Shown here: positions 37,218 through 61,594 of the stretch, one piece after another
How the letters are laid out: the number at the start of each line of letters is the position of its first letter
Position numbering within the stretch: the stretch's first letter is position 1
Assembly: GCA_014874185.1 (NCBI GenBank)
Contig: JACWAF010000035.1
Location: forward strand, 62,001 to 126,000
Reading direction: 5' to 3'
From: Nitrospirota bacterium
GTDB lineage: Bacteria; Nitrospirota; Thermodesulfovibrionia; Thermodesulfovibrionales; JdFR-88
Length of the DNA: 64,000 nucleotides
The notes under the pieces: generated by a model
Told to the model about the DNA's origin: nothing
The model's input: the letters and a program-made list of their open reading frames with translations, nothing else
Databases searched by the model: none
Program-made: the position numbers and the translations under genes

Positions 37218-38435
37218 TTAGCACTCCAGGCCGTGGATGCTCCTCGGGATCTCGGCCTGCTCCCGCCTGACCGGGATATACCATAAAACCCCGTCAATTA
37301 TCATGAGGAGCCCCGCCAGGCCTAGCACCAGGTTAAAGGACGTGAAGAGGCCCAGGCCGTAATAGGCCAGCACGCCGACCCCCACGCTCAGAAAGGATAT
37401 GCCCGTGCGGATGAAGGCTATCCCCGTCCTCGCGCGCGAGTATATGGCCCGGTAGCAGGCCGCGATCGTGCGCTGGGCGGCCAGCACATTCCTGTCGCGC
37501 GCGTACATGGTGCGCACCTTGCTTGAGGGCGAGGGGTTCAGTATGGTGCAGTATTCATACAGGTTGTCACCCATCCGGGCCAGCATCGTCCCTTTAGTCC
37601 TGCATTCCACGCCCGTATTGTCCAGACAATGATAGTTCTCAAGGAAATTGAGGGTGGCCGAGGTCACTTCCACAAGGGTCTGATGGCCGGGCGGGCTCAT
37701 CCGAGACCTGCGCACCTTCAAATACACCGGAAGCCCGTAAACGGTGAGGATCAGGCCCAGCACCATAAGGCCAACAAAGAGGCCCGGCTCGGTCGTTGCG
37801 CTCCTGTTTTGCAGCAGTGTGTTGGCCATGGCCACCGTGCCTAGGCCCCACCTGACGAATGAAAGCCCCGTCCGGGCGTTGCCAAGGTCTGTCTTGTAGC
37901 AGGCAAGCCTGGTCCTCCATTGTGCCATGGTGTTGCGCCAGTACGCGAGCCCGGTCCTCTCGGTGCCTATCAGCAGGCCCGGCTTCGCGTGCAGAAAGTC
38001 CTGGATATACCACTGTATGTCGTCGTCCAGGGCCACCCTGAACTCATACTCATCGGCCTTGACGTATTTTGTTACCTCCCGCATTACGGCTGGGTCGCGC
38101 GGGTTTCGCGCCGCTATCACCACCTTGCCCGAGGTATATTTGATGACCGGTATCCACAGGCTTGTGGAGAGCGTATCGCCGTCCAGTCCGGCCAGAAGCT
38201 CGGGCGGGATGGGCAGGCGCTCGTCATATTCAACGGGGGCGCATCCGTAGTGTTCCGAGAGGGCCCGGAGGAGCATATGGCGGGGTAGTCCGTACTCTGA
38301 GAGGAGGACCTTCTCAAGCTCCACCCCCCTGGCCCTGGCGGCGGTCTCCGCCCTGTCCAGTTCTCCGGGGCTGATAAGCCCCCAATCGGCCAGCAGCGAA
38401 AATTCCCGGTTTCCGGTCACGTCAGTCCGGTTCAT
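37218..38435 (-). CDS. T2SSE_N-like domain plus two DUF202-like membrane modules
   Basis: A 405-aa protein. Residues about 13-150 resemble the N-terminal domain of type II secretion/pilus ATPases (GspE_N/MshEN): GLISPGELDRAETAARARG, EKVLLSEYGLPRHMLLRALS and SLWIPVIKYTSGKVVIAARN. Two membrane modules follow (about 188-235 and 350-395). Each is led by an exact 7-residue array with Arg/Lys at the first position (R160, R167, R174, K181, R188, R195), running into NARTGLSFVRWGLG like DUF202. It overlaps its 544-aa paralogue by 14 bp, so they form one operon. Role unknown; MshEN domains can bind cyclic di-GMP, but the ligand residues cannot be confirmed here. Confidence 0.7.
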   Translation of the reverse strand: MNRTDVTGNREFSLLADWGLISPGELDRAETAARARGVELEKVLLSEYGLPRHMLLRALSEHYGCAPVEYDERLPIPPELLAGLDGDTLSTSLWIPVIKYTSGKVVIAARNPRDPAVMREVTKYVKADEYEFRVALDDDIQWYIQDFLHAKPGLLIGTERTGLAYWRNTMAQWRTRLACYKTDLGNARTGLSFVRWGLGTVAMANTLLQNRSATTEPGLFVGLMVLGLILTVYGLPVYLKVRRSRMSPPGHQTLVEVTSATLNFLENYHCLDNTGVECRTKGTMLARMGDNLYEYCTILNPSPSSKVRTMYARDRNVLAAQRTIAACYRAIYSRARTGIAFIRTGISFLSVGVGVLAYYGLGLFTSFNLVLGLAGLLMIIDGVLWYIPVRREQAEIPRSIHGLEC

Positions 38436-40056
38436 GGTTGAATATGACCTTCTTCCAGTATCGTGCGGGTTTGCCGTAATCGGGCAGAACTATCTCCATA
38501 TCGCCGTAGCAATATGGATACTGCCGCCTTATCTGTTCGGGCTCGTTCATCCACCGGAACCCGTCGAAGACAAGGTAAAGCCCCCCGACCACCAGAATGA
38601 TATTGAATATCGTCCAGCCGGCAGAGCCCGTCCCGAAGAACATCATCAGGCCCGCCCCCACCATTATTATGCTTATGCCGGTCCTTATTATCGCCTGTCC
38701 CGTCCTGGCAAGCCCCATAATGGTGCGGAACCTGGCCATTACGCAGCGTCTTTCGGCCAGCACGGTCCTCTCCAATGCGAGGCCCGTTGTGGCCCAGATT
38801 CCGGGCTCATGCGAGGCCTCCACAGGCGGATAGCCCGTGCCCTGGTGCGGACGTTTCCTGAAGGGCAGTACGAAGTCCCAGATGCTCTCCTTGTAATTCA
38901 TGCTCTGGGCCCATTTAAACGCCTTCATCGCCGAGCGCTGCCCCGCCAGATACCAGTAAAGCCCCTCAGCGCACATCAGGGTGCCCAATGTGATAAGGGT
39001 GATGTCGAAGACGGTCCAGCCGCTCGAGTGGAAATGCCTTATCAGGGCGATGCCCAACCCAATGAAAGTGGCGCCCGTGCGCGTAAAGGCCAGCCCGGTC
39101 CTTGCCTTTGCAAGCTCCGTCCTGTGGCCCGCCAGCCCGGTCCTCTCCTCCGCCATGTCGCTTCGGTCGCTTGCTATGAACCGCCGCCTCATAACCGGCG
39201 ACAGGCTGCTCCAGGCCGCCCTCAGTCTTTCAGCCCCCCTCACGATGGCGCTCCGCCTGAAGACCGGGGAATTGTTCTCGACCGCAACCCCCAGCACGCT
39301 GCTGCCGCCATCGGGCTCGGTAGAGGAACAGTCGACAGGCATCCCGCCTACCGGGCGCGAGGGCATGTACCATTTGAGGCCGTCGAATATCGCGATTATC
39401 CCGAACAGGGTGAGCGGGACCTCCAGTATGGCGTAAAGGCCCGTGCCGAAGATCCGCCAGAACAGAAGCGCTATGGTCAGGGCCGAGATGCCGGCCCTGA
39501 TAAAGGCAAGCCCCGTCCTACCCCTGGCCAGCAGCGTCCTGTAATGGGCGTAGGTAGACCGCCTGTAGGCCAGATACACCCTGGAGAGGGCAAGCGGCGT
39601 CCTGCCGCCGGTTGGCTGGAAGCCGTTGTTGAGGTCGTAGTTGTTCTCTATTATCCTGATAAGGTCTGCGGGAAGAGCGGCCCTGAAATCAATTTCACTC
39701 ACGACAAGGGCCTTTTTTATCTTTTCGGCCAGGGAGGGGTCTTTCGGGTCATAGGCGATGACCTCGGCCCTTCCCTTGTAGACCGCGACGGGAAACCACA
39801 TCTCCGATTTCAGCTGCCCGAAATCGAGCCTTCTGAGGAGCCCCTGCGAGATGGTCAGCCCCTCGTCGTATTCCTCGCAGGCGCAGTTGTAGTGTTCCGA
39901 GGCGCAGAAGATCAACTCGTGCTTCGGGATGCCGCACGCAAGGAGGTGGTCCTCAATGTAGCACCCCCGCTCCCTGGACGCTCTTGCCGCCTCTTCCAAT
40001 TCGCCGGAGGTGATCAGATTTCGCCTTACAAGGCGCTCGAACCTGCTCTCAGACAT
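38422..40056 (-). CDS. T2SSE_N-like domain plus three DUF202-like membrane modules
   Basis: A 544-aa paralogue of the downstream gene. The N-terminus (RNLITSGELEEAARASRERG, CGIPKHELIFCASEHYNCA, MWFPVAVYKGRAEVIAYDPK) is the same GspE_N-like domain. Three membrane modules follow near residues 170-230, 315-370 and 445-500, each ending in a two-helix hairpin. Each is preceded by heptads of the form R-T-x-L-A-x-x (RTGLAGHRTELAKARTGLAF is the clearest). The first gene of the pair; ATG 40056. No ATPase domain is present, so it is not a secretion motor. It may be an envelope signalling or scaffold protein. Confidence 0.7.
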   Translation of the reverse strand: MSESRFERLVRRNLITSGELEEAARASRERGCYIEDHLLACGIPKHELIFCASEHYNCACEEYDEGLTISQGLLRRLDFGQLKSEMWFPVAVYKGRAEVIAYDPKDPSLAEKIKKALVVSEIDFRAALPADLIRIIENNYDLNNGFQPTGGRTPLALSRVYLAYRRSTYAHYRTLLARGRTGLAFIRAGISALTIALLFWRIFGTGLYAILEVPLTLFGIIAIFDGLKWYMPSRPVGGMPVDCSSTEPDGGSSVLGVAVENNSPVFRRSAIVRGAERLRAAWSSLSPVMRRRFIASDRSDMAEERTGLAGHRTELAKARTGLAFTRTGATFIGLGIALIRHFHSSGWTVFDITLITLGTLMCAEGLYWYLAGQRSAMKAFKWAQSMNYKESIWDFVLPFRKRPHQGTGYPPVEASHEPGIWATTGLALERTVLAERRCVMARFRTIMGLARTGQAIIRTGISIIMVGAGLMMFFGTGSAGWTIFNIILVVGGLYLVFDGFRWMNEPEQIRRQYPYCYGDMEIVLPDYGKPARYWKKVIFNHEPD

Positions 40057-44389: not shown

Positions 44390-44863
44390 ATGACTACCGC
44401 TCGGGTTTACGAAACTGATCAAATAAAAAAGAAGATCATCGCGACACTGGGGCTTAAAGATTCGGAACTGAAGCCGAAGGAAAGAGACAAGGGAATGCTG
44501 GCCTTTGATGCCCTTATTCGAAAAGGAATCCCTTATGCTAAAGTCCAGCTCGTAAAAGCCGCCTTAAATCTTACTGATAACGAGTTCGCTGATTATCTAG
44601 GCATAAGTCTGAGGACATTACAGAGAAAGCGAGATTCTCACAAGGCACTCTCAATTCCGGAGAGCGATCGGATTTACCGTATGGTAAAGATATATGCCCT
44701 TGCCGTTATAGTGCTTGAGGATCAGGGGATGGCACAGAAATGGCTGCACAGGCCGCAGAGAGGCCTGGGAGGAAGGGTGCCTATCCAGGTTATACAGACA
44801 GAGGCAGGTGCCCAGGAAGTCGAAGACCTACTTGAAAAAATAGAATTTGGGGTCCTTGTTTAG
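44390..44863 (+). CDS. Xre/ParS-type antitoxin (MbcA/ParS/Xre family)
   Basis: A 157-aa antitoxin. An N-terminal/central HTH region (VKAALNLTDNEFADYLGISL then RTLQRKR) is followed by the ParS/MbcA toxin-binding domain (SDRIYRMVKIYALAVIVLEDQGMAQKWLHRPQRGLGGRVPIQ-type). It neutralises the RES toxin encoded next and should repress its own promoter. The GTG of the toxin overlaps its stop by 1 bp. Lower GC than the chromosome, consistent with acquired DNA. Confidence 0.9.
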   Translation: MTTARVYETDQIKKKIIATLGLKDSELKPKERDKGMLAFDALIRKGIPYAKVQLVKAALNLTDNEFADYLGISLRTLQRKRDSHKALSIPESDRIYRMVKIYALAVIVLEDQGMAQKWLHRPQRGLGGRVPIQVIQTEAGAQEVEDLLEKIEFGVLV

Positions 44864-45330
44864 TGATTTGCTGGCGCATCGCCAAAAAGAAATACGCGAA
44901 TTCAGCTTTTGACGGAGAAGGGGCAAGGAGAAAGGGCGGGCGCTGGACGCCAAGAGGGTTTCCCGTCGTTTATACGGCTCAAACCGAATCCTTGTCCGCC
45001 CTTGAGCAATTTGTTCAACTCGGAGATGAAGGGCAAAAAATCCGGTTTGTCTGCTTCAAAGTGGAAATCCCGGACAGCCTTATAATAAAAGAAATCGACC
45101 TTGCCTCCTTGCCGGATAATTGGAGAGATACCCCGGCGCCGGATAGTTTGAAAGCCTACGGGTTTGAATGGTTAACACAAGGACAGAGTGCTGTGCTAAA
45201 AGTGCCTTCCGTCCTGATATCTTCCGAATGCAATTTTATCCTGAATCCTCTCCATCCCGATTTTCAAAAGATTAAGATATCTGCCCCCGAGAAGTTTTGT
45301 TACGACCCGCGCATGTGGAAAGAGGAATAG
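44863..45330 (+). CDS. RES-domain toxin (NAD+-degrading)
   Basis: A 155-aa RES toxin; the family depletes NAD+ by hydrolysis or phosphorolysis. Motifs: CWRIAKKKYANSAFDGEGAR, GGRWTPRGFPVVYTAQTESL with active-site Arg/Tyr, SALE with the catalytic Glu, and LKVPSVLISSECNFILNPLH. GTG start overlapping the antitoxin stop. As the first cargo next to the tRNA junction it probably stabilises the island. Confidence 0.9.
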   Translation: MICWRIAKKKYANSAFDGEGARRKGGRWTPRGFPVVYTAQTESLSALEQFVQLGDEGQKIRFVCFKVEIPDSLIIKEIDLASLPDNWRDTPAPDSLKAYGFEWLTQGQSAVLKVPSVLISSECNFILNPLHPDFQKIKISAPEKFCYDPRMWKEE

Positions 45331-46290
45331 CGGCCCATTCATGTCATGACCTTAAATCATTAAGGTTTGTCCTTTTTCACCACAAACAGCACTATATGAA
45401 TATGAAAGTAGTGAAAAAGAAGATATTATGACGGAATCTTTTGCTGAGACTGCGGATTTCGAGCGGATAAACGCGGCGGTTCCTTTTAATACAAGGTGAG
45501 AAGTCCCCCTTCTATTCCTAAAAATGGGGCCTTCCTGTCTGGCCTCGAGTTTCGTCTTATAACTGGGCATGCGCCTAATCCCCGGAAGGATACACGTTAC
45601 GACCCGTATTAATGAGGACACCTACAAAAACTGCACCTGATACGTCGCACTTTCGAAAAATTGAAACTCGTGAGGGTTACCGAAAATAACTGTCATGCAA
45701 GTGGAAAGATAACTCTGGCCATCAATCATCCGGAAGAAGCACTAATAGCCTGAGCGGCAAAATCCCGCGCCCTATTTCGATGTGCTTTTTGGTTGTTTGT
45801 CTTTCTTCTCTTTTAGATCTTTTGCCATTTTGGTCGCCTTCTGTTTCCGGTCTTTGTCCTTGTCCTTTTTGCCGCCTTTGTCTCCCATTTTGTGCCTCCT
45901 TTGGTGTCGCCACTTATATTCTTGCCTTTCGAGAACCGATGTCCCTCAAATGAATGCTACCAGAAGTATGAGCCGAATCGCTAGGTTTAATGAGGGGATA
46001 TCTTCGGCAGTCCCGCCATTTATGACGCATGCTCCAAACGTGCGGGGGCATTCATGTGGTATAGTTAACGATGGTAAGAGAGGCTCTCTTACATTCTTTA
46101 ATGGTTCAATTTTTCTTCCATTAGCGGATATTCTCTCTCCCTTTCAGAGGGCTCCCATCATATAGTCCAAAACCCTCTTTGCACGGGGGCGCACGTAAAG
46201 AATTTATAACAGCCGGGGGAGTGTTGTTTTTTAAGCATGCCGGAATGTTGCTTGCGGAATGCCTCCCTGGATGAAAAAAGGAGACACATT
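45331..46290. other. Gene-poor stretch of the island
   Basis: About 960 bp with only the 38-aa minus-strand gene (45772-45888). Other reading frames (for example minus 45352-45621) have no recognisable domain or ribosome site and may be decayed DNA. Confidence 0.5.
45772..45888 (-). CDS. Lys-rich micro-protein (38 aa)
   Basis: Encodes a 38-residue protein starting MGDKGGKKDKDKDRKQKATK and ending in QPKSTSK, with 16 Lys and 6 Asp. A perfect ribosome site AGGAGG lies 6 nt before the ATG, which strongly supports translation. Similar Lys/Asp/Gln-rich short proteins annotated as hypothetical occur in several proteobacteria (recalled, not checked). Likely unstructured; could bind RNA or nucleoid. 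Confidence 0.65.
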   Translation of the reverse strand: MGDKGGKKDKDKDRKQKATKMAKDLKEKKDKQPKSTSK

Positions 46291-47373
46291 ATGATTGAAA
46301 TCATACAAGAAACACCTTCGCCACAGGTTTGCGCCGCTAAAATCTTTGAGATGAGCGGCACGCAACTTAATCCCGATGTGGCCGGTGCCCTTTGGCCGAA
46401 GATCCTGCGGCACAAATGGCTCATGTCCGAAAAACATGGCCGCGACGTCGGGTTGCGCGCGGCCTGCGTTGATTTTGTCGAACATATGGACCAGGCAATT
46501 CAGGAGTATGTTGACTACAAGCGAAAGGACGTACTGAACGACTTGGGCGCTCAAGCCTTCGGAAGAGAAATATGGGATACGATCTCGGATTCCCAGCCGC
46601 CGAAGCAGTTGGTCCAGAAGCGGATAATCCTCCCCCTGACAGAGCGTGACCTCTCAATAAAACACGGCGTCGTTCCTCCGAAGACGATCATTTTCTTCGG
46701 ACCTCCCGGCACCGGAAAGACCCATTTTGTCAAGGCGATAGCTGGTGTGCTTTCTTGGTGGTATATCGAAATATTACCCAGCATGCTTATGGCCGACGGC
46801 ATAGAGAAGCTGGGCGCAAATCTTCACGCGATCATGGAAAAAGCAAGGACGCTTGAAGACGCAGTGATCTTCATCGATGAATTTGATGAAATCGCCGGCA
46901 GCAGGGACGATGCAACCATGGTAGGCAAGTCTATTACAAACGAGTTTCTCAAGCAGGTCCCACTCATCAAAAACCAGGGCAATAAGATATTGCTCGTATG
47001 CGCAACCAACTATATCAGACAGCTCGACGCCGCTCTGCTCCGCCCGGGAAGGTTTGATTGTATTATCCCCGTCGGGGTTCTGGATGAAGACGGGAGAAAG
47101 ACCATCCTGGAATATTATTTGACCAAGCTCAATACAAAGGGAATCGACCTTGATCGGATTGTGAGCATGACCTCCCGGTTTACGCCTGCCGACATCGAAT
47201 ATCTGTTCCAGCAGGTTGCACAATCCGCCTTCGAGAAGGAGTATGCCAGCAAACGTGATTACGTTGTTACTACAGAAACTTTTTTACAGATGATTGCGGC
47301 AATTCGTCCGTCGTTAACCGAAGGCATGATTGAGGAGTTTCAAAAGGACAGCATTGCGTATGCCAGAGCATAG
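46291..47373 (+). CDS. AAA+ ATPase (DUF4032-like N-terminus)
   Basis: A 360-aa AAA ATPase. ATG 46291 has AGGAG 7 nt upstream; an in-frame start at 46237 lacks one. The N-terminal 100 residues contain ILRHKWLMSEKHGRDVGLRA, reminiscent of DUF4032-type proteins (uncertain). The AAA core has Walker A GPPGTGKT, Walker B VIFIDEFDEI, a sensor/Arg-finger block CATNYIRQLDAALLRPGRFD and an alpha-helical lid (SRFTPADIEYLFQQ). It resembles the FtsH/Cdc48-type classical clade but has no protease or membrane domain. It precedes the glucan synthase by 72 bp and may be co-transcribed. Confidence 0.87.
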   Translation: MIEIIQETPSPQVCAAKIFEMSGTQLNPDVAGALWPKILRHKWLMSEKHGRDVGLRAACVDFVEHMDQAIQEYVDYKRKDVLNDLGAQAFGREIWDTISDSQPPKQLVQKRIILPLTERDLSIKHGVVPPKTIIFFGPPGTGKTHFVKAIAGVLSWWYIEILPSMLMADGIEKLGANLHAIMEKARTLEDAVIFIDEFDEIAGSRDDATMVGKSITNEFLKQVPLIKNQGNKILLVCATNYIRQLDAALLRPGRFDCIIPVGVLDEDGRKTILEYYLTKLNTKGIDLDRIVSMTSRFTPADIEYLFQQVAQSAFEKEYASKRDYVVTTETFLQMIAAIRPSLTEGMIEEFQKDSIAYARA

Positions 47374-47408
47374 GAATGCCCGCCAATGTGATAAGTCTCT
47401 GAGTTGCA

Positions 47409-47440
47409 GGGGCCTCTTGCCTCCAGGAAGAAGGAGGCCC
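47409..47440 (+). promoter_or_regulatory. Hairpin sequestering the glucan-synthase ribosome site
   Basis: GGGGCCTC (47409-47416) pairs with GAGGCCCC (47433-47440). The 3' arm includes the end of AAGGAGG, the ribosome site of the giant gene. Confidence 0.5.
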
Positions 47441-47445
47441 CGGGC

Positions 47446-50400
47446 GTGAAAGTGAACAAAAAGACCGTCATGGGGAATCTGCATCAATTACGCTCGATCT
47501 TCCGCGGAACAGACCTGGCAAAAAAATGCGCTGTCTGCGAGCCTCCATTGCGGTCGGAATTGTTCAGCAGCGATCAGATGGAGCAGCACGGCAAGACCCT
47601 CGCGGCCTTGCATAAATTAAGCCCGGAATATGCCCCGGATCAGCTCCTGGCGCGGCTGGCCGACAATGAAAGTATCCTGACCGGGACCCGCAGCCTGCTG
47701 ATTGAGGCAATTACGACCGGCCGCCGGATTACGCCGGCGGGCGAATGGCTGCTTGACAACTTCTATCTGATCGAAGAACAAATACGCACGGCCAGGAAAC
47801 ATCTGCCCAAGGGGTACAGCCGCGAGCTTCCCCGCCTGCTGGAAGGCCTTTCGGCAGGGTTGCCGCGCGTGTATGACATCGCCTTGGAGACGATTTCACA
47901 CAGCGATGGGCGGATAGATACACAAAATCTGAGCAGGTTCATGGCAGCCTACCAGACGGTCGCCGTCCTGAAGTTGGGGGAATTGTGGGCAATCCCGATT
48001 ATGCTGCGGCTCGCGTTGATCGAAAATCTCCGGCGCGTTGGGGCGCGGATTGCCGCCGACAGACTCTACCGGAACCAGGCGGATTATTGGGCGGACCGGA
48101 TTGCTGAGATCGCCGGAAAAGACCCGAAGAGCCTGATATTGGTCATCGCGGACATGGCGCGGTCAAACCCGCCACTGAGGAGCGCGTTTGTTGCGGAATT
48201 TGCCCGCCGGCTTCAGGGTCAGGGGCCCGCCCTGGCAATGCCGCTCACATGGATTGAGCAGCGACTCTCCGAGAGCAGTCTGACAATCGACCATTTGGTA
48301 CAGTCGGAGAACCAGCAACAAGCAGCTGATCAGGTCTCGATGAGCAACAGCATCGGCAGCCTTCGTTTCCTTGGCACGATGGACTGGCGCGAGTTCGTCG
48401 AGACGATGAGCGTTGTCGAACAGACCTTGCGTGAGGATGCCGGCGGTATATACGGCAGAATGGATTTTTCTACTCGTGACCGTTACCGTCACGTGGTAGA
48501 GAAAATGGCGAAGAGAGGCCGGCTTTCGGAAGGCGAGGTGGCAGCCGAAGCGGTACGGCTCGCGCGTGAGAGTGCGGCCAATAAAGGCGCCGCCCGCGGC
48601 GGAGGTGACTCCGCAGCCCATGTGGGTTATTATCTGATCGACAAGGGATTGCCGCAGCTTGAAAAGCTGGCACGTGTGCGATTTTCTGTCTCCGGAGCCC
48701 TTCGGAAAGTGGGTTTCCGGTCCCCTTTGCTCCTCTATCTGGGCGCGATCACGTTTATAACGGTGATTTTCACCGGGGGGGTGCTGGCGAAGGCGCATGC
48801 TGATGGTTTACCTCTTTGGCTTCTCGTGGCTGCCGGCATTCTCACAACGCTGTGTGCAAGCCATCTTGCAGTTGCGATGGTGAACTGGCTTGCGACATTG
48901 CTGGCAATTCCGCAGCAGCTGCCGCGAATGGACTTTTCCACAGGCATTCCGCCTGAATCGCGGACCCTCGTCGTTGTCCCGGCTATGCTCACAAACGCCC
49001 AGGGGATCGCGGACCTGATCGAGGGGCTGGAAGTCAGGTTCCTCGCGAATCGCGACAATAACCTGCACTTCGGCCTACTGACTGATTTTCAGGATGCGAC
49101 AGAGGAAACACTGCCGGAGGACGAACCGCTGCTATTGCTTGCCCAACAGAGAATCGAAGAACTGAATGTAAAATACCGAAACGCAAAAGGCGATACGTTC
49201 TTCCTTTTTCACCGCCCGCGCCGATGGAATGCCCGGGACCGGGTCTGGATGGGTTATGAGCGCAAACGGGGAAAGCTGGCGGCATTGAATGCCTTATTGC
49301 GGGCCAAGGGAAATGGAGGGGCGCATGATCTGCCGGTAAACCGCTTTTCGCTCATCGTAGGCAATACGGAAATCCTGGCTAACATAAAATACGTGATCAC
49401 CCTTGACACGGATACTCAGTTGCCGCGCGATGCGGCGCGGCAGTTTGTGGGGGCCATGGCGCATCCGCTGAACCGTGCGCAATATGACGAAGGCCGGCAG
49501 CGCGTTGTTGACGGGTACGGCATCCTTCAGCCGCGTGTCGCCGTGAGTCTGCCCGGCACAAACCGCTCGCGGTATGCGCGCCTGTACGGGAGCGATCCCG
49601 GCATCGATCCGTACACGCGAGCCGTTTCGGATGTCTACCAGGATATCTTCCGTGAAGGCTCCTTTATCGGCAAGGGGATATATGACGTCGACATATTCGA
49701 GCAGACGTTGGGCGGACGTTTCCCCGAAAACCGGATTCTCAGCCACGATCTTATCGAAGGATGTTACGCACGCGCGGGCTTGTTGAGTGATGCAATGGTG
49801 TACGAGGAGTATCCATCCAGTTACAGCGCGGACGTGAGCCGCCGACACCGCTGGATTCGAGGGGACTGGCAGCTTGTGCGCTGGCTTTTGCCGGTTAATG
49901 GGCCCGGCCCCGATGGGGAGCGCCAAAAGAATCCTCTCTCGTTGCTGTCCAGGTGGAAGCTCTTCGACAACATTCGGCGCAGCCTCGTGCCTTCGGCCTT
50001 GACACTTCTCGTGCTGCTGGGTTGGACGGTCCTGTCATCAGCATGGTTCTGGAGCTTGTCGGTGATCGGGATTATTTTTATTCCTTTTTTTATAGCCTTT
50101 CTCCTGGATTTGTTTAGGCAGCCTGACGATATGCATTTTCTGCAGCATCTCGCTGCCGTGGTGCAATCCACCGCCAGGCGCCTTGTTCAGGCTGTCTTTA
50201 TGCTTGCATGTCTTCCGTACGAGGCGTTTTTCAGCCTGGATGCGATTGCGCGTACGACCTGGAGAATGTTGGTCACGCACAAGCGGCTCCTAGAATGGAG
50301 TCCTTCGGGCGATCCGAATAAAAATGCACGCGGCTCCCGTATCGGCGGTCTCGCCGGTGTCTGCCGGACAATGTGGTTCGCGCCTTTTATTGCCGTCGCG

Positions 50401-53400
50401 GCGATAATCTATCTGGCGCTTTTTAATCCCGCCGTTTTGGGAATGGCTGCGCCCATACTGCTGCTCTGGTTTGCCTCACCCGTTATCGCATGGTGGATCA
50501 GCCGGCCCCTTGCCCGGGACGAAGCAAGGCTTAGGCCTGGCCAGACCGTCTTTCTCCAAAAGCTTTCCCGAAAGACCTGGGCCTATTTCGAGACATTAGC
50601 CGGCCCCGAAGAGCATTGGCTGCCGCCCGATAACTATCAGGATTACCCTGCTCCCGCCGTTGCGCATCGCACGTCTCCGACCAATATGGGACTTGCGCTG
50701 CTGGCGAATTTATCCGCCCACGACTTTGGCTACATATCCACACGGCAACTCATTGAACGAACGGCAAATGCCCTCTCCACAATGGAAGCACTGGAGCGCT
50801 ATCAGGGCCATTTTTACAACTGGTACGACACGCAGTCTCTGAAGCCGCTGCCGCCCAAATACGTTTCGACCGTGGACAGCGGTAACCTTGCGGCCCATCT
50901 GCTAACGCTGAGGCAGGGTCTGCTCGCTCTTGCCGACCAGCCGGTCCTTGGCCCGCAAGTGTTTACCGGACTCCGCGACACGTTATGGATTTTGCTGGAT
51001 GTTGCGGCAAAAACAGGCTCTGACGGAGATGCCTCTGTCTTGCTCGATCAACTACGGAAGGAGCTTGAGTCCGCATGCGATTTCAGACCAACTGCGCTTG
51101 CCGCTGCACGGCTCAACCTCGAGCGGCTGGCAACATCCGCCGCAAAAGTGCTCAATAGTCTCGATGCCCCCGATGTGGATCCGGATGGCGAAGTCATCCG
51201 GTGGGCACGCGCTTTTGCCGGGCAATGCCGGGCCGCACTCGATGAGATCACGCATCTGGCCCCTTCCACGGCTCGCGGCATTGATGAGATGCCGACGCTG
51301 CGCGAACTGGCAGGCACCGGAAACGATCTCGCCTCTGAGAGGATCGCGGCTATCGAAAAGCTCGTGCTGCAATCCGGCGAACTCAGCCGCATGCAGTATG
51401 ACTTCCTGTTCGACAGGGCGAGTCACTTACTGGCCATCGGGTACAACGTCGACAGCCGCAGGCGGGACACGAGTTACTACGACCTGCTGGCATCGGAAGC
51501 GAGACTCTGCAGTTTTGTAGCGATCGCTCAGGGACAATTACCGCAGGAGAGCTGGTTTGCCTTGGGCCGCCTGCTCACGAATGTTGGCGGAGAGCCGATA
51601 CTTGTTTCCTGGAGCGGTTCGATGTTCGAATACCTCATGCCGCTCCTCGTGATGCCAGCGTATGAGCGTACGCTGCTCGACGAGACCTGCAAGGCGGCAG
51701 TGGCCAGGCAGATCGAGTATGGAAGGAAACAGGGGGTGCCCTGGGGCATTTCGGAATCCGGCTACAACACAATCGACGCTCATCAAAATTACCAATACCG
51801 CGCCTTCGGCGTACCTGGCCTGGGACTCAAGCGCGGGCTCGCCGACGACCTTGTCATTGCGCCCTATGCCTCGGCGCTTGCGCTGATGGTGGCTCCCGAA
51901 GAGGCGTGCCTGAATATGCAGCGGCTCGCAGCGGAGGGATGCGAGGGCAAATTCGGCCTCTATGAAGCGGTCGATTACACTCCATCGCGTCTGCCGCGCA
52001 GACAATCGAGCGTTGTGGTCCGGTCATTTATGGCTCATCATGTGGGCATGAGCTTTCTCTCCCTTGCCTGTTTGCTATTGGACCGTCCGATGCAGAAGCG
52101 ATTCGAATCGGACCCATTGTTCCAGGCAACAACGCTTCTGCTCCAGGAGCGCGTGCCAAGGGCCACGACATTCTATTCGCAGACCACCGACCTCGCCGAA
52201 GCGCATATGGCTGCCAGCGGCGCGGAGAGCTCCGTGCGCTCTTTCAGCAGCCCGGACACGCCGTTTCCCCAGGTGCAGTTGCTGTCCAACGGCAGATACC
52301 ATGTGATGATCACGAACGCCGGAGGCGGGTACAGCCGCTGGAAAGACATCGCGGTCACGCGGTGGCGTGAAGATACAACCCGTGACAACTGGGGCGCTTT
52401 TTGTTATATCCGTGAAGTGGCCAGCGGGGAGTTCTGGTCGGTCGCATATCAGCCTGCGCTCAAACGCCCGAAGAATTATGAGGCGATTTTCTCGGAAGGC
52501 AGGGCGGAGTTTCGCTGCCTGGACCACGACTTTGACACTCATACCGAAATCGCTGTGTCCCCCGAGGATGATATTGAACTGCGCAGGGTCACGATCACCA
52601 ACCGCGGCAGAACACGCAGAGAGATCGAAGTCACGACTTACGCGGAGGTTGTCCTTGCGCCGCTTGCCGCAGACGGGCTTCATCCGGCGTTAAGCAATCT
52701 TTTTGTTCAGACGGAGATCATCGGCCACAGGCAGGCAATCCTCTGCACCCGCCGTCCCCGCTCACTTGACGAGCATCCGCCCTGGATGTTTCATCTAATG
52801 GCCGTCCAAGGGACGGAAACCGGCGAAGTTTCCTATGAGACCGACCGCCTTCGGTTCATCGGTCGCGGAAAAACCCTTGCCAACCCGCAGGCCCTATGCA
52901 GCGCCGCTGCACTCTCCGGCGGCGAGGGCCCGGTGCTCGATCCGATCGCCGCTATCCGTTGCCGCATGACCCTTGATCCGGAAAGATCTGCAACAATAAA
53001 TATTGTCACCGGCATTGGTGAACCCCGGGACCTCTGTATGGGCCTCATAGAGAAATACCAGGACCGGTATCTTGCTGACCGCGTCTTCGATCTTGCATGG
53101 ACACACAGCCAGGTACTCCTACGGCAGATCAATGCCACAGAGGCCGATGCGCAGCTCTATGCCAGCCTGGCCGGCTCCGTGATCTACGCCAATCCAACGC
53201 TTCGCGCGGACCCTGACGTTATCACCCGGAACCGCCGCGGGCAATCCGGTCTGTGGGGCTACTCCATTTCCGGCGATCTCCCGATCGTTTTGTTGCAGAT
53301 CGCAGATCCGGCCAACATTGACCTGGTACGTCAGCTGGTACAGGCACACGCGTACTGGCGTCTCAAGGGACTCGCGGTGGACCTCGTGATCTGGAATGAA

Positions 53401-56130
53401 GATCACGCCGGTTACCGGCAGCTTCTGCAAGAACAGATCATGGGACTCGTTGCCGCAGGCGTAGAAGCGAACGTGACAGAACGGCCGGGCGGCATCTTCG
53501 TAAGACCTGCGGACCAGATATCGGATGAGGACCGCATCCTGCTCCAGACAGTAAGCCGCGCGGTCATCACCGACAGCCTTGGCCCGCTCGCGGACCAGAT
53601 CAACCGCCGCAGTATTGTGCCACTCATAGTACCGCGCCTTGCGCCGGCCCGGAACCATCGCGCCGAATCCCCGGCTGCCGTGGCAATTACTCGAAGCGAT
53701 CTGCTGTTTTTTAACGGACTCGGCGGGTTCACCCCCGATGGCCGCGAGTATATCATCACGACCACCCGCGAACAGGTGACTCCGGCGCCATGGGTGAATG
53801 TGATCGCGAACCCGCACTTCGGGACGGTTATTTCGGAGAGCGGATCTGCTTACACCTGGAACGAGAATGCCCATGAGTTCCGCCTCACCCCCTGGTACAA
53901 CGACCCGGTATGCGATCCCGGCGGAGAAGCTTTTTACCTCCGCGATGAAGAAAGCGGCCTTTTCTGGTCCCCTGCTCCGTTGCCCGTCCGGGGGGCGATG
54001 CATTACGTCAGCCGCCATGGATTCGGTTACAGTGTCTTTGAACACACAGAAGACGGCATCAGATCAGAGATGTGGGTTTACGTGGCAATGGATGCATCGG
54101 TCAAGTTGACGGTATTGAAAGTGAAAAACGAATCGGGCCGGTCCCGTCGGCTCTCGGCCACCGGGTACGTGGAATTGGTGCTGGGGGACCTGCGGCCGAA
54201 AACGGCAATGCATGTGATCACCGAAATCGATCCCAAAACCGGCGCGCTTTTTGGGCGGAACCCATATAACACGGAGTTCTCCGGCCGGACGGCGTTCTTC
54301 GACGTGGATGAGGCGACCCGGACAGTAAGCGGCGAGCGAACAGAGTTCCTTGGCCGTAACGGCACGCTCCGGCGCCCGGAGGCGATGTCCCGTGCGCGGC
54401 TTTCCGGCAGGGTAGGGGCTGGCATGGACCCCTGCGGCGCCATCCAGGTCCCCTTCGATCTTGCTGAGGGGCAAGAGCGCGAGATTATCTTCAGGCTCGG
54501 CGTCGGGCGAGACTCATATGATGCCAGCCAACTGGTGCTCCGCTTCCGAGGATCTGCCCCGGCGCGCGGAGCGCTCGAGAAAGTCTGGCAGTACTGGAAC
54601 CACACCCTGGGCGCAGTGCAGGTGGAAACACCGGACCAGTCCGTCAATGTGCTGGCCAACGGCTGGCTCTTGTACCAAACTCTGGCATGCCGTCTCTGGG
54701 CAAGGTCCGGATATTACCAGCCCGGGGGCGCCTTCGGCTTCCGTGACCAGTTGCAGGACGCGATGGCGCTTATCCACTCTAAGCCTCGACTTGTGCGCGA
54801 GCACCTCCTCCTCTGCGCGGCCCATCAGTTCAGGGAGGGAGACGTCCAGCATTGGTGGCATCCCCCGACCGGGCGCGGCGTACGTACACACTGTTCGGAC
54901 GACTTTCTCTGGCTGCCCCTGGCCGTGTGCCGGTACGTTCTGACTACCGGAGATACGGGGGTGCTGGATGAAACTGTCCGCTTCCTCGATGGCCGCCCGG
55001 TAAACAAAGACGAGGACTCGTATTACGATCTCCCCCACGCGTCTGAAGAGGCTGCGAGTTTGTACGATCACTGCGTACGGGCCATTCTAAGGAGTTTCAG
55101 CCGCGGCGGGCACGGTTTGCCGCTCATCGGCTCGGGTGATTGGAACGACGGAATGAACACAGTGGGCAAAGACGGCAAGGGTGAAAGCGTTTGGCTGGGG
55201 TTCTTCCTCTACAAAGTGCTCGTAGAGTTCTGTCAGATTGCGCTTCTGAAAAGTGATCTGCCGTTTGCCGGACGCTGCCGGGAGGAAGCTGCTCAACTGC
55301 GCAGGAATATCGAAGAGAACGGCTGGGATGGCGAATGGTATCTGCGCGCCTTCTTTGACGACGGCTCACCATTGGGTTCGGCGGGTAATACCGAATGCCG
55401 GATTGATTGTATCGCGCAAAGCTGGTCCGTTCTCTCCGGCGCCGGTGATGCCGAACGCTCACACATGGCAATGGAAGCGGTGGATAAGCTTCTCGTTCAG
55501 CGGGACCATGGCCTGATCCAGCTCCTGGCCCCCCCGTTCGATAAATCGGATCTGAACCCCGGCTACATCAAGGGATACGTCCCAGGTGTAAGGGAGAATG
55601 GAGGGCAATACACCCATGCGGCCATCTGGGCCGCGATGGCATTCGCCGCATTGGGCGACAGCAGTCTCGCGTGGGAACTGCTTACGATGATCAACCCGGT
55701 AAACCATGCGGGATCTCCAGGGAAGATTGCAACCTACAAGGTAGAACCGTATGTTGTCGCGGCAGACGTATATGCCGTCTCGCCGCACATTGGACGCGGT
55801 GGATGGACGTGGTACACGGGATCGGCCGGCTGGATGTACAGGCTTATCACGGAATCGCTTATGGGGATGCGGCTTGAAACGGACAAGCTGCGTTTTGCGC
55901 CGTGCCTGCCCGGTGAGTGGGAGTCATTCAAGATGCATTACCGGTATAGGGAAACCGTCTATCATATCACCGTGCTGCAAACGAACAACAGCGGCGCGGC
56001 GAGTGTGATCGTCGATGGCGTAGAGCAGCCAGACACGGCAATCCCGCTCCTTGACGACCATCGTGAACATACGGCCGAGATGAGAATACCAGCCCCGGAC
56101 AAAACGAAGGGGAATGATATAGCAAAATAA
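47446..56130 (+). CDS. ndvB: Cyclic beta-1,2-glucan synthase (NdvB/ChvB type, GT84 + GH94)
   Basis: A giant inner-membrane enzyme of about 2,894 aa. GTG 47446 is chosen because AAGGAGG lies 8 nt upstream; TTG 47404 has no such site. Two membrane helices near residues 425-480, then the GT84 glycosyltransferase with LDTDTQLPRDAA (about 654) and RRHRWIRGDW (about 798), and further membrane helices at about 848-890 and 975-1020. Glucoamylase-like and carbohydrate-binding regions (SGYNTIDAHQNYQYRAFG) precede the C-terminal GH94-type phosphorylase half with catalytic Asp in GSGDWNDGMN (about 2561). It makes periplasmic osmoregulated cyclic glucans from UDP-glucose. No NdvA exporter is in the window. 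Codon choice differs from the host genes, fitting transfer with the island. Confidence 0.93.
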   Translation: MKVNKKTVMGNLHQLRSIFRGTDLAKKCAVCEPPLRSELFSSDQMEQHGKTLAALHKLSPEYAPDQLLARLADNESILTGTRSLLIEAITTGRRITPAGEWLLDNFYLIEEQIRTARKHLPKGYSRELPRLLEGLSAGLPRVYDIALETISHSDGRIDTQNLSRFMAAYQTVAVLKLGELWAIPIMLRLALIENLRRVGARIAADRLYRNQADYWADRIAEIAGKDPKSLILVIADMARSNPPLRSAFVAEFARRLQGQGPALAMPLTWIEQRLSESSLTIDHLVQSENQQQAADQVSMSNSIGSLRFLGTMDWREFVETMSVVEQTLREDAGGIYGRMDFSTRDRYRHVVEKMAKRGRLSEGEVAAEAVRLARESAANKGAARGGGDSAAHVGYYLIDKGLPQLEKLARVRFSVSGALRKVGFRSPLLLYLGAITFITVIFTGGVLAKAHADGLPLWLLVAAGILTTLCASHLAVAMVNWLATLLAIPQQLPRMDFSTGIPPESRTLVVVPAMLTNAQGIADLIEGLEVRFLANRDNNLHFGLLTDFQDATEETLPEDEPLLLLAQQRIEELNVKYRNAKGDTFFLFHRPRRWNARDRVWMGYERKRGKLAALNALLRAKGNGGAHDLPVNRFSLIVGNTEILANIKYVITLDTDTQLPRDAARQFVGAMAHPLNRAQYDEGRQRVVDGYGILQPRVAVSLPGTNRSRYARLYGSDPGIDPYTRAVSDVYQDIFREGSFIGKGIYDVDIFEQTLGGRFPENRILSHDLIEGCYARAGLLSDAMVYEEYPSSYSADVSRRHRWIRGDWQLVRWLLPVNGPGPDGERQKNPLSLLSRWKLFDNIRRSLVPSALTLLVLLGWTVLSSAWFWSLSVIGIIFIPFFIAFLLDLFRQPDDMHFLQHLAAVVQSTARRLVQAVFMLACLPYEAFFSLDAIARTTWRMLVTHKRLLEWSPSGDPNKNARGSRIGGLAGVCRTMWFAPFIAVAAIIYLALFNPAVLGMAAPILLLWFASPVIAWWISRPLARDEARLRPGQTVFLQKLSRKTWAYFETLAGPEEHWLPPDNYQDYPAPAVAHRTSPTNMGLALLANLSAHDFGYISTRQLIERTANALSTMEALERYQGHFYNWYDTQSLKPLPPKYVSTVDSGNLAAHLLTLRQGLLALADQPVLGPQVFTGLRDTLWILLDVAAKTGSDGDASVLLDQLRKELESACDFRPTALAAARLNLERLATSAAKVLNSLDAPDVDPDGEVIRWARAFAGQCRAALDEITHLAPSTARGIDEMPTLRELAGTGNDLASERIAAIEKLVLQSGELSRMQYDFLFDRASHLLAIGYNVDSRRRDTSYYDLLASEARLCSFVAIAQGQLPQESWFALGRLLTNVGGEPILVSWSGSMFEYLMPLLVMPAYERTLLDETCKAAVARQIEYGRKQGVPWGISESGYNTIDAHQNYQYRAFGVPGLGLKRGLADDLVIAPYASALALMVAPEEACLNMQRLAAEGCEGKFGLYEAVDYTPSRLPRRQSSVVVRSFMAHHVGMSFLSLACLLLDRPMQKRFESDPLFQATTLLLQERVPRATTFYSQTTDLAEAHMAASGAESSVRSFSSPDTPFPQVQLLSNGRYHVMITNAGGGYSRWKDIAVTRWREDTTRDNWGAFCYIREVASGEFWSVAYQPALKRPKNYEAIFSEGRAEFRCLDHDFDTHTEIAVSPEDDIELRRVTITNRGRTRREIEVTTYAEVVLAPLAADGLHPALSNLFVQTEIIGHRQAILCTRRPRSLDEHPPWMFHLMAVQGTETGEVSYETDRLRFIGRGKTLANPQALCSAAALSGGEGPVLDPIAAIRCRMTLDPERSATINIVTGIGEPRDLCMGLIEKYQDRYLADRVFDLAWTHSQVLLRQINATEADAQLYASLAGSVIYANPTLRADPDVITRNRRGQSGLWGYSISGDLPIVLLQIADPANIDLVRQLVQAHAYWRLKGLAVDLVIWNEDHAGYRQLLQEQIMGLVAAGVEANVTERPGGIFVRPADQISDEDRILLQTVSRAVITDSLGPLADQINRRSIVPLIVPRLAPARNHRAESPAAVAITRSDLLFFNGLGGFTPDGREYIITTTREQVTPAPWVNVIANPHFGTVISESGSAYTWNENAHEFRLTPWYNDPVCDPGGEAFYLRDEESGLFWSPAPLPVRGAMHYVSRHGFGYSVFEHTEDGIRSEMWVYVAMDASVKLTVLKVKNESGRSRRLSATGYVELVLGDLRPKTAMHVITEIDPKTGALFGRNPYNTEFSGRTAFFDVDEATRTVSGERTEFLGRNGTLRRPEAMSRARLSGRVGAGMDPCGAIQVPFDLAEGQEREIIFRLGVGRDSYDASQLVLRFRGSAPARGALEKVWQYWNHTLGAVQVETPDQSVNVLANGWLLYQTLACRLWARSGYYQPGGAFGFRDQLQDAMALIHSKPRLVREHLLLCAAHQFREGDVQHWWHPPTGRGVRTHCSDDFLWLPLAVCRYVLTTGDTGVLDETVRFLDGRPVNKDEDSYYDLPHASEEAASLYDHCVRAILRSFSRGGHGLPLIGSGDWNDGMNTVGKDGKGESVWLGFFLYKVLVEFCQIALLKSDLPFAGRCREEAAQLRRNIEENGWDGEWYLRAFFDDGSPLGSAGNTECRIDCIAQSWSVLSGAGDAERSHMAMEAVDKLLVQRDHGLIQLLAPPFDKSDLNPGYIKGYVPGVRENGGQYTHAAIWAAMAFAALGDSSLAWELLTMINPVNHAGSPGKIATYKVEPYVVAADVYAVSPHIGRGGWTWYTGSAGWMYRLITESLMGMRLETDKLRFAPCLPGEWESFKMHYRYRETVYHITVLQTNNSGAASVIVDGVEQPDTAIPLLDDHREHTAEMRIPAPDKTKGNDIAK

Positions 56131-60211: not shown

Positions 60212-61513
60212 CTATTCTTCCGGGAAGCGGTCCCTCGCGGCCACAAGCACGATCCCCTGCCCGGGCCTCAGGTCATAAGAGAAGGGCTGGGGGATGTAGT
60301 CCAGCGGGTACTCCGGGGATATGTCCACGGCCGGCGCGCCCGCCTGTAAAAATCTCTGGAGGCTTTCTGCCCGGAAATTCTGTTTCCCCCGGATGTCCTT
60401 GTTCAGGATGAAGAGCGACTCCTGTTCGGTGCGCGTCGAGGCCTTCCACAAAAGGAGCACGTTCGGGTTGTCATGGGATAGCACGCTGGTTGGCGCGTCC
60501 TCCTGGAAGATGCTGTTTGCCGTCTTTATGCCGTTCACCCTCGCTATGAAAGAGCTGAGGTTGACTTCCGTCTGTTCCCAGTCAGCGGGCCTTGTCTTGA
60601 CGACGTGGAGCCTTTTTCTGAAGCCGAATTCGAACCCGATGGGCATCATCACCCCGGCTGAAAAAAGGGCCGAGAACAGATAGCGCTGCTTCATGCCGTC
60701 GATGTCTCCGCCCAGCTCTTCACACAGCCGTTCGGTGTCATGGGTTTCGGGAAAGCTTATCGAAGGGGCGATCTCCCTGGTGAGGGCGTATTGTTCCAGA
60801 AGCCAGGGGCTGGTGAAATCCCACCACTTCGAGCTGTTGAAGATATAATCGAAACCCGATGCCGCTGTCTTTCTGGTGAGGTCGGGAGGCGAGCCCAGGG
60901 TCTCGGCAAAGAAGAGGACGTCCGGGTGTCTCTGTTTTGTCTCGGCTATCAGTCTCTCCCAGAAGCTCCTGGGCACCTGATAGGCCGCGTCGCAGCGCAT
61001 CCCCTTGAAGCCCAGCTTCACCAGGAACTCGACCACTTCAACCCAATAACGGAACAGCCCTTCCTTGTCGCTTGAGTTCCGATGGTCAAACTTCGCGAGG
61101 TCGTACCAGACCACCTTCTTTCCGTTCTGCATCGCAAAGGGGTGCTCCACCTTTCCCCTGCCCTCCCAGGCGAACCAGGCGGGATGCCTTTTCAAAAGCT
61201 CCGAATCGACCGCGCAGTGGTTCAGCACAAGATCGGTCATCACCCTGAGGCCGAACCTTTCGGCGGCCCGTATCGCGTCCCTCAACTGGTCAGCGGCCCC
61301 CTTCCTGCCCTTTTCATCCACGAAGAGCGGATTGAATTCGAAATAGTCGGCGATGGAATAAAGGCTTCCGGAAGCCCCGGTGCGCTGAACGGGGTTCACG
61401 AATATCCAGTTGAAGCCCATCGTCCTTGCCCGCTCCATGTGTTTCTTCCATTCCGCAAACTTCCCGGCAAGGAGCGGAAACAGATTGTATATGATCACCT
61501 TCTCAGGTCTCAT
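60212..61513 (-). CDS. GH13 alpha-amylase family enzyme
   Basis: A 433-aa (beta/alpha)8 enzyme. Catalytic nucleophile Asp in GMRCDAAYQVP, acid/base Glu in LFFAETLG, stabilising Asp in FPETHDTERL, and DLVLNHCAVDSELL (region I) are present. The compact form (IFVNPVQRTGASGSLYSIADYFEF) resembles the GH13_3/GlgE maltosyltransferase relatives more than secreted amylases; no signal peptide, so it acts in the cytosol. Likely remodels an internal alpha-glucan. Transcribed with or near the GWD gene (81-bp gap, same strand). Confidence 0.85.
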   Translation of the reverse strand: MRPEKVIIYNLFPLLAGKFAEWKKHMERARTMGFNWIFVNPVQRTGASGSLYSIADYFEFNPLFVDEKGRKGAADQLRDAIRAAERFGLRVMTDLVLNHCAVDSELLKRHPAWFAWEGRGKVEHPFAMQNGKKVVWYDLAKFDHRNSSDKEGLFRYWVEVVEFLVKLGFKGMRCDAAYQVPRSFWERLIAETKQRHPDVLFFAETLGSPPDLTRKTAASGFDYIFNSSKWWDFTSPWLLEQYALTREIAPSISFPETHDTERLCEELGGDIDGMKQRYLFSALFSAGVMMPIGFEFGFRKRLHVVKTRPADWEQTEVNLSSFIARVNGIKTANSIFQEDAPTSVLSHDNPNVLLLWKASTRTEQESLFILNKDIRGKQNFRAESLQRFLQAGAPAVDISPEYPLDYIPQPFSYDLRPGQGIVLVAARDRFPEE

Positions 61514-61594
61514 TGCGCATGCTCCTGTATTCTTCGATTATCCGCGGCTGGCCCTTCGCCCACCCTGAACCGCACGCTCAAATCCCCGGCACCA

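Follow-up and report, generated by a model that had tools for sequence, protein, structure and literature searches.

An overlapping gene pair of Nitrospirota and other bacteria encodes five DUF202 membrane modules with near-invariant arginine ladders

The present study describes an overlapping gene pair from a Nitrospirota bacterium which adds a new variant to the DUF202 membrane family, set apart by an unusual, near-invariant arginine ladder and by a module count fixed at five. The pair lies within the window, the whole 64,000-nucleotide stretch of DNA that was analysed. The arginine repeat, first noticed in the letters of the window, has been confirmed as real and is stronger than the original prediction claimed.

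Results

Both genes of the pair are on the minus strand, where the start of P0001 and the end of P0002 overlap by 14 nt. The two overlapping genes and five membrane modules described at the outset were found as open reading frames with three and two modules. Their features are as follows.

38422-40056, minus strand: P0002, 544 aa; MshEN-fold N-domain, three arginine-ladder DUF202 modules (A, B, C) and a conserved C-terminal tail
39634-40041, minus strand: N-domain of P0002, MshEN fold, about residues 6-141; c-di-GMP motif residues lost
39352-39603, minus strand: module A of P0002; ladder R152-159-166-173-180-187 leading into TM1, then TM2
38938-39186, minus strand: module B of P0002; ladder R291-298-305-312-319-326, TM1, TM2
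38542-38790, minus strand: module C of P0002; invariant T423, then ladder R430-437-444-451-458, TM1, TM2
38431-38538, minus strand: C-terminal tail of P0002, residues 507-542, conserved PYC-G-MEI--PDYG-P---W; low model confidence
37218-38435, minus strand: P0001, 405 aa; MshEN-fold N-domain and two arginine-ladder DUF202 modules (D, E)
37992-38408, minus strand: N-domain of P0001, MshEN fold, about residues 10-148; c-di-GMP motif residues lost
37701-37958, minus strand: module D of P0001; ladder R160-167-174-K181-R188-R195, TM1, TM2
37254-37514, minus strand: module E of P0001; ladder R308-315-322-329-336-343, TM1, TM2

Monomer AlphaFold models of the two proteins were built on alignments of 63 and 65 sequences and reached a mean pLDDT of 81.6 and 82.3. 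Two membrane helices are predicted per module. In the models of every module the ladder and TM1 form a single unbroken helix of 52-57 residues, followed by the second membrane helix; the continuous helix with an arginine stripe, for which a structure prediction had been suggested, does run from the stripe into the membrane. The N-terminal part of both models is an MshEN-like domain, and the C-terminal tail of P0002 is possibly a partner-binding peptide. Pfam searches of both proteins returned only MshEN and DUF202, together with a sub-threshold match to NEDD4_Bsd2; as first noted, no ATPase domain was found after the N-domain. PADLOC gave no defence match. The family had been thought to be undescribed, and a literature search found no paper naming both MshEN and DUF202. 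Elsewhere in the window, positions 44390-45330 (plus strand, in a stretch of lower GC, 0.45) hold an Xre/MbcA/ParS-type antitoxin followed by a RES-domain protein, likely a toxin-antitoxin pair, and positions 46237-56130 (plus strand) hold an AAA ATPase gene (PF00004) followed by a single open reading frame of 2908 aa.

Each module carries, ahead of TM1, five or six basic residues at an exact spacing of seven, and the last rung of the ladder sits where TM1 begins. In P0001 they fall at 160, 167, 174, 181, 188 and 195, as originally listed, with lysine at 181, and the second ladder of this protein spans 308-343. When 63-65 homologues were aligned, all 29 ladder positions were found to be 98-100% Arg/Lys and no insertion or deletion was seen inside any ladder, so the 7-residue spacing, whose loss in homologues would have counted against the original prediction, is exact in every sequence. 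It was also found that 0 of 20,000 shuffles per protein matched the observed number of 7-spaced runs of at least five basic residues. Because of the shuffling result and the persistence of basic residues at the 29 positions in homologues, the ladder cannot be put down to chance. Pooled over 24 heptads, position 1 is R (about 100%), position 2 is T (77%) or N (13%), position 4 is L (62%) or M (22%; L/M 84%) and position 5 is A (93%), positions 3, 6 and 7 being free. The units had been described as exact R-T-x-L-A-x-x words, four to six per module; the exact spacing and the upper count of six stand, while RTxLA proves to be a consensus rather than a fixed word and the minimum is five. Relative entropy per column failed to tell the heptad positions apart, as conservation extends to every orthologous column; pooling over ladders did tell them apart.

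The conserved side of the heptad (R1, A5, L4, T2) has its centre 30-43 degrees from the arginine, with the hydrophobic side at -38 degrees, which places the arginine on the packed face of the helix and not on the free face. From helix geometry, a strict 7-residue repeat over 36 residues would drift on a straight helix and would keep to one line in a left-handed helical bundle. The net charge of the five ladders together is about +29 in the window proteins (family mean +32), with few acidic residues to pair. It could be argued that the ladder simply acts as a coiled-coil spacer whose arginines face water, its spacing a legacy of DUF202 ancestry with no special role, since 2-4 Arg/Lys at 7-residue spacing are already usual in ordinary DUF202 proteins of that order and one protein has up to 5. 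But near-perfect conservation of 29 positions on the packed side of a helix is not expected for a water-facing stripe, and we regard this explanation as very improbable.

The N-domains passed the Pfam cut-offs for MshEN in both proteins (7.7e-9 and 1.3e-5), and Foldseek and VIA matched their fold to the N-domains of MshE, PilF, PilB and XpsE. The resemblance to MshEN/GspE_N proposed earlier is therefore borne out in profile as well as in fold. The known domains share the fold with those of the pair, which differ in that no ATPase follows, the c-di-GMP residues are lost and DUF202 modules are attached. The fold matches included PilB-PilZ structures, the MshEN-type domain being a known docking domain. 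Among the relatives without the pair, L018-L024 carry open frames, about 755-782 aa long, in which one stretch matches residues 9-150 of P0001, its N-domain.

The c-di-GMP motif of MshE consists of two RLG...Q elements with contacts at G11, Q32, G40 and Q61 (PMC5013675). In the 63-65 homologues Gln32, Gln61 and Gly11 are each kept in 0% and Gly40 in 0-2%; the second motif could be out of register by one residue, and the window proteins have no Gln there. The NCBIfam c-di-GMP motif model scored the N-domains far below its cut-off, and XpsE, which has lost similar residues, does not bind c-di-GMP (PMC5013675). Thus, of the earlier suggestion that the N-domain can bind c-di-GMP, the fold is present and the Gly and Gln contacts are gone from the family; judged by its residues, binding appears unlikely. 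The original reading of the proteins as a membrane scaffold controlled by c-di-GMP has the MshEN fold of the N-domains in its favour, but in view of these losses it retains hardly any credence.

Homologues were sought in one genome per species over about 85,000 species, and of the 101 relatives found 80 loci were kept. Judged by their record titles, they come from Nitrospirota, Actinobacteria, Gammaproteobacteria and Desulfobulbales, Candidatus Electronema being among the last. The complete pair, three modules followed by two, in genes that overlap when the earliest start codon is taken, is present in 68 of the 80 loci. Among the other 12 only L116 is truly degenerate, and the rest appear to be cut by contig ends or frame-shifted. 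L116 was considered as a possible 2+2 exception; its three-module gene seems to be without the ladder of module C and its second gene is cut short, and because of these losses it was counted as one degenerate locus. L068 has one additional three-module gene besides the pair. A candidate Rosetta-stone fusion of the pair with the kinase in L122 (872 aa) was rejected, as it seems to result from a frame shift close to where module E ends. When 148 Nitrospirota genomes were searched in full, 13 had strong matches, and 12 of these had exactly five module matches; the thirteenth is 78% complete and has one module match near a contig end. Modules of the same kind are 57-69% identical across species, and those of different kinds 31-43%. 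The kinds thus keep their identity, as would be predicted if each had its own set position in an asymmetric ring.

DUF202 is a bacterial family with no assigned function, and to our knowledge its best-studied relative is part of a eukaryotic polyphosphate channel. The single-domain bacterial members include the YidH/YidG family. Among the titles and abstracts retrieved for YidH/YidG and for prokaryotic homologues of Vtc1, none deals with a function of bacterial DUF202 proteins. The assignment of the modules to DUF202 holds well: PF02656 matched three stretches of P0002 at 29.2 bits (cut-off 23.4), while P0001 scored 23.0 bits, just under the cut-off, and its relative in L119 passed at 25.4. 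Alignments and models show the RTxLAxxRT core entering the membrane helix pair in the modules, and hhalign related the ladder modules to ordinary DUF202 proteins with 97.2% probability (E 4.5e-11). The ordinary single-domain bacterial proteins, such as the copy in the host genome (G000:C23), share PF02656 and the RTxLAxxRT core with the ladder modules; unlike the pair, they have one module per protein, usually 2-4 rungs and no N-domain. A single ordinary DUF202 gene lies about 10-20 kb from the pair in L040 (260-2860), L055, L061 and L067, and in L040 and L061 it adjoins a PAP2 phosphatase and a PMT_2-type glycosyltransferase.

When the DUF202 profile was compared with the PDB, the four best matches were all Vtc1 chains (E 0.007-0.013). 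Yeast Vtc1 in turn matches PF02656 at 1.9e-17, from K24 onward; the Vtc1 sequence used is consistent with the PDB alignment in the part displayed there. When the modules were compared with Vtc1 directly, the result was not significant, so the link to VTC runs through the DUF202 family. VTC chains were absent among the matches listed in PDB fold searches with the models of the pair, where helical matches carry no information below Z 13.

The subunits of VTC assemble 3:1:1 into a pentamer, and their five TM1 helices together form the wall of a polyphosphate channel (PMC9911596). Basic residues of the channel are 7 apart (Vtc1 K24/R31, Vtc4 K622/R629), and mutating the channel's basic residues abolishes the vacuolar polyphosphate store (PMC9911596). 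The likeness to the pair lies in the count of five DUF202-type units, 3 + 1 + 1 in the VTC assembly and 3 + 2 modules in the two proteins encoded here, and in basic residues 7 apart leading into TM1, which in the pair would likewise line a pore. The differences are that the pair has no VTC/TTM polymerase domain (PF09359 had no match in either protein), two predicted membrane helices per module against three per VTC subunit, five or six rungs against about two, and MshEN-fold N-domains with bacterial two-component neighbours.

The pair belongs to an operon. Downstream on the same strand, a HAMP histidine kinase is found in 46 of 71 loci with room for it, a stand-alone CheY-like receiver in 40 of 68 and a PEP-synthase-like enzyme in 47 of 60. 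The enzyme has PPDK_N and phosphohistidine domains and a different C-terminal part, which in the copy tested had no Pfam match. Upstream of the pair in Nitrospirota are universal stress proteins, a TauE-type transporter and a TIGR02186 membrane protein. Several loci of Desulfobulbales (within L078-L108) have one to three extra PEP-synthase-like paralogues upstream of the pair. In the host genome the kinase, receiver and enzyme stand together on another contig (G000:C28). Among 61 related genomes an orthologue of the enzyme (E < 1e-100) occurred in 11 of 13 with the pair against 4 of 48 others (Fisher 2e-7, kinship ignored). A dikinase of the window (61595-63976) was considered as the operon enzyme and set aside, since it is of the glucan-water-dikinase type and the operon orthologues are those on G000:C28. 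The region 60212-63976 (minus strand), with a glucan-water-dikinase-like protein beside a glycogen debranching enzyme-like gene, is a glucan phosphorylation neighbourhood.

These neighbours bear on a signalling assembly without transport, in which a five-helix stalk would sense a soluble polyanion or phosphorylated ligand through its arginine rings and the MshEN-fold domains would relay to the kinase, the response regulator and the PEP-synthase-like enzyme. The constant partners (HAMP kinase, receiver and phosphohistidine enzyme), the docking known for MshEN-type domains from PilB-PilZ and the lack of a known polyanion polymerase linked to the pair all speak for it. But it leaves the five-fold module number and the continuation of the ladder into the membrane helix unexplained, and genome G024 has the kinase cluster but lacks the pair; we consider it rather unlikely, though a serious competitor. 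The original prediction of a signalling or scaffold membrane protein is vaguer than the evidence of five modules and of Vtc1 in DUF202 allows.

As for a cargo, no obvious polyanion maker was seen among the neighbours of the pair. None of the 61 order-level genomes, of which 13 carry the pair, had PPK1, PPK2 or the VTC polymerase (PF09359), and the control genomes were positive. Among 22 other carriers PPK1 was found in 4 and a PPK2 match, one of them weak, in 6; Electronema and Gammaproteobacteria are among those with PPK1 or PPK2. With these polymerases absent from the host and most carriers tested, polyphosphate as the cargo is doubtful, and polyphosphate made by known enzymes is not the general cargo. 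A polyphosphate-specific channel, which would be the bacterial equivalent of the VTC channel and receive its polymer from a separate or novel polymerase, would account for the DUF202 pore domain, the five modules and the VTC-like 7-residue spacing, and it could draw on the polymerases of some carriers, but the survey of the order makes it improbable.

Discussion

The fixed number of five modules and the membership of Vtc1 in DUF202 favour a closed bundle with a lining of basic residues. Our preferred reading, held tentatively, is that the five modules form a VTC-like, pseudo-pentameric tube of arginine rings which binds or passes a polyanion, with the MshEN domains and the tail docking regulators. 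P0002 and P0001 would associate 1:1, and the five DUF202 modules of the complex would join in a single closed pseudo-pentameric bundle, the five first membrane helices lining the pore. On the cytoplasmic extensions of the TM1 helices, the inward-facing ladders would stack as about six basic rings above and at the membrane entrance. Such a tube could attract, hold and probably pass an extended polyanion, like the DUF202 channel of yeast VTC, though its basic path would be longer. Regulators may dock on the MshEN-fold domains and on the tail of P0002; the likeliest are two conserved products of the operon, the stand-alone response regulator and the PEP-synthase-like enzyme, with the histidine kinase in control. 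We infer the single ring, the inward arginines, the polyanion cargo, the two-component gating and the transport from the features described above. It is also conceivable, though a long shot, that the pair is a bacterial counterpart of the VTC channel working without VTC or PPK polymerases: a five-module, six-ring arginine tube carrying across the membrane a polyanion that is perhaps made or charged by the PEP-synthase-like enzyme, and gated by the kinase and receiver.

An overlapping gene pair which supplies exactly five DUF202 modules makes a direct and testable statement on the assembly of bacterial DUF202 proteins. If the ladder holds a polyanion, these proteins would represent an overlooked kind of membrane conduit in bacteria of several phyla, most of its carriers being known from metagenomes alone.
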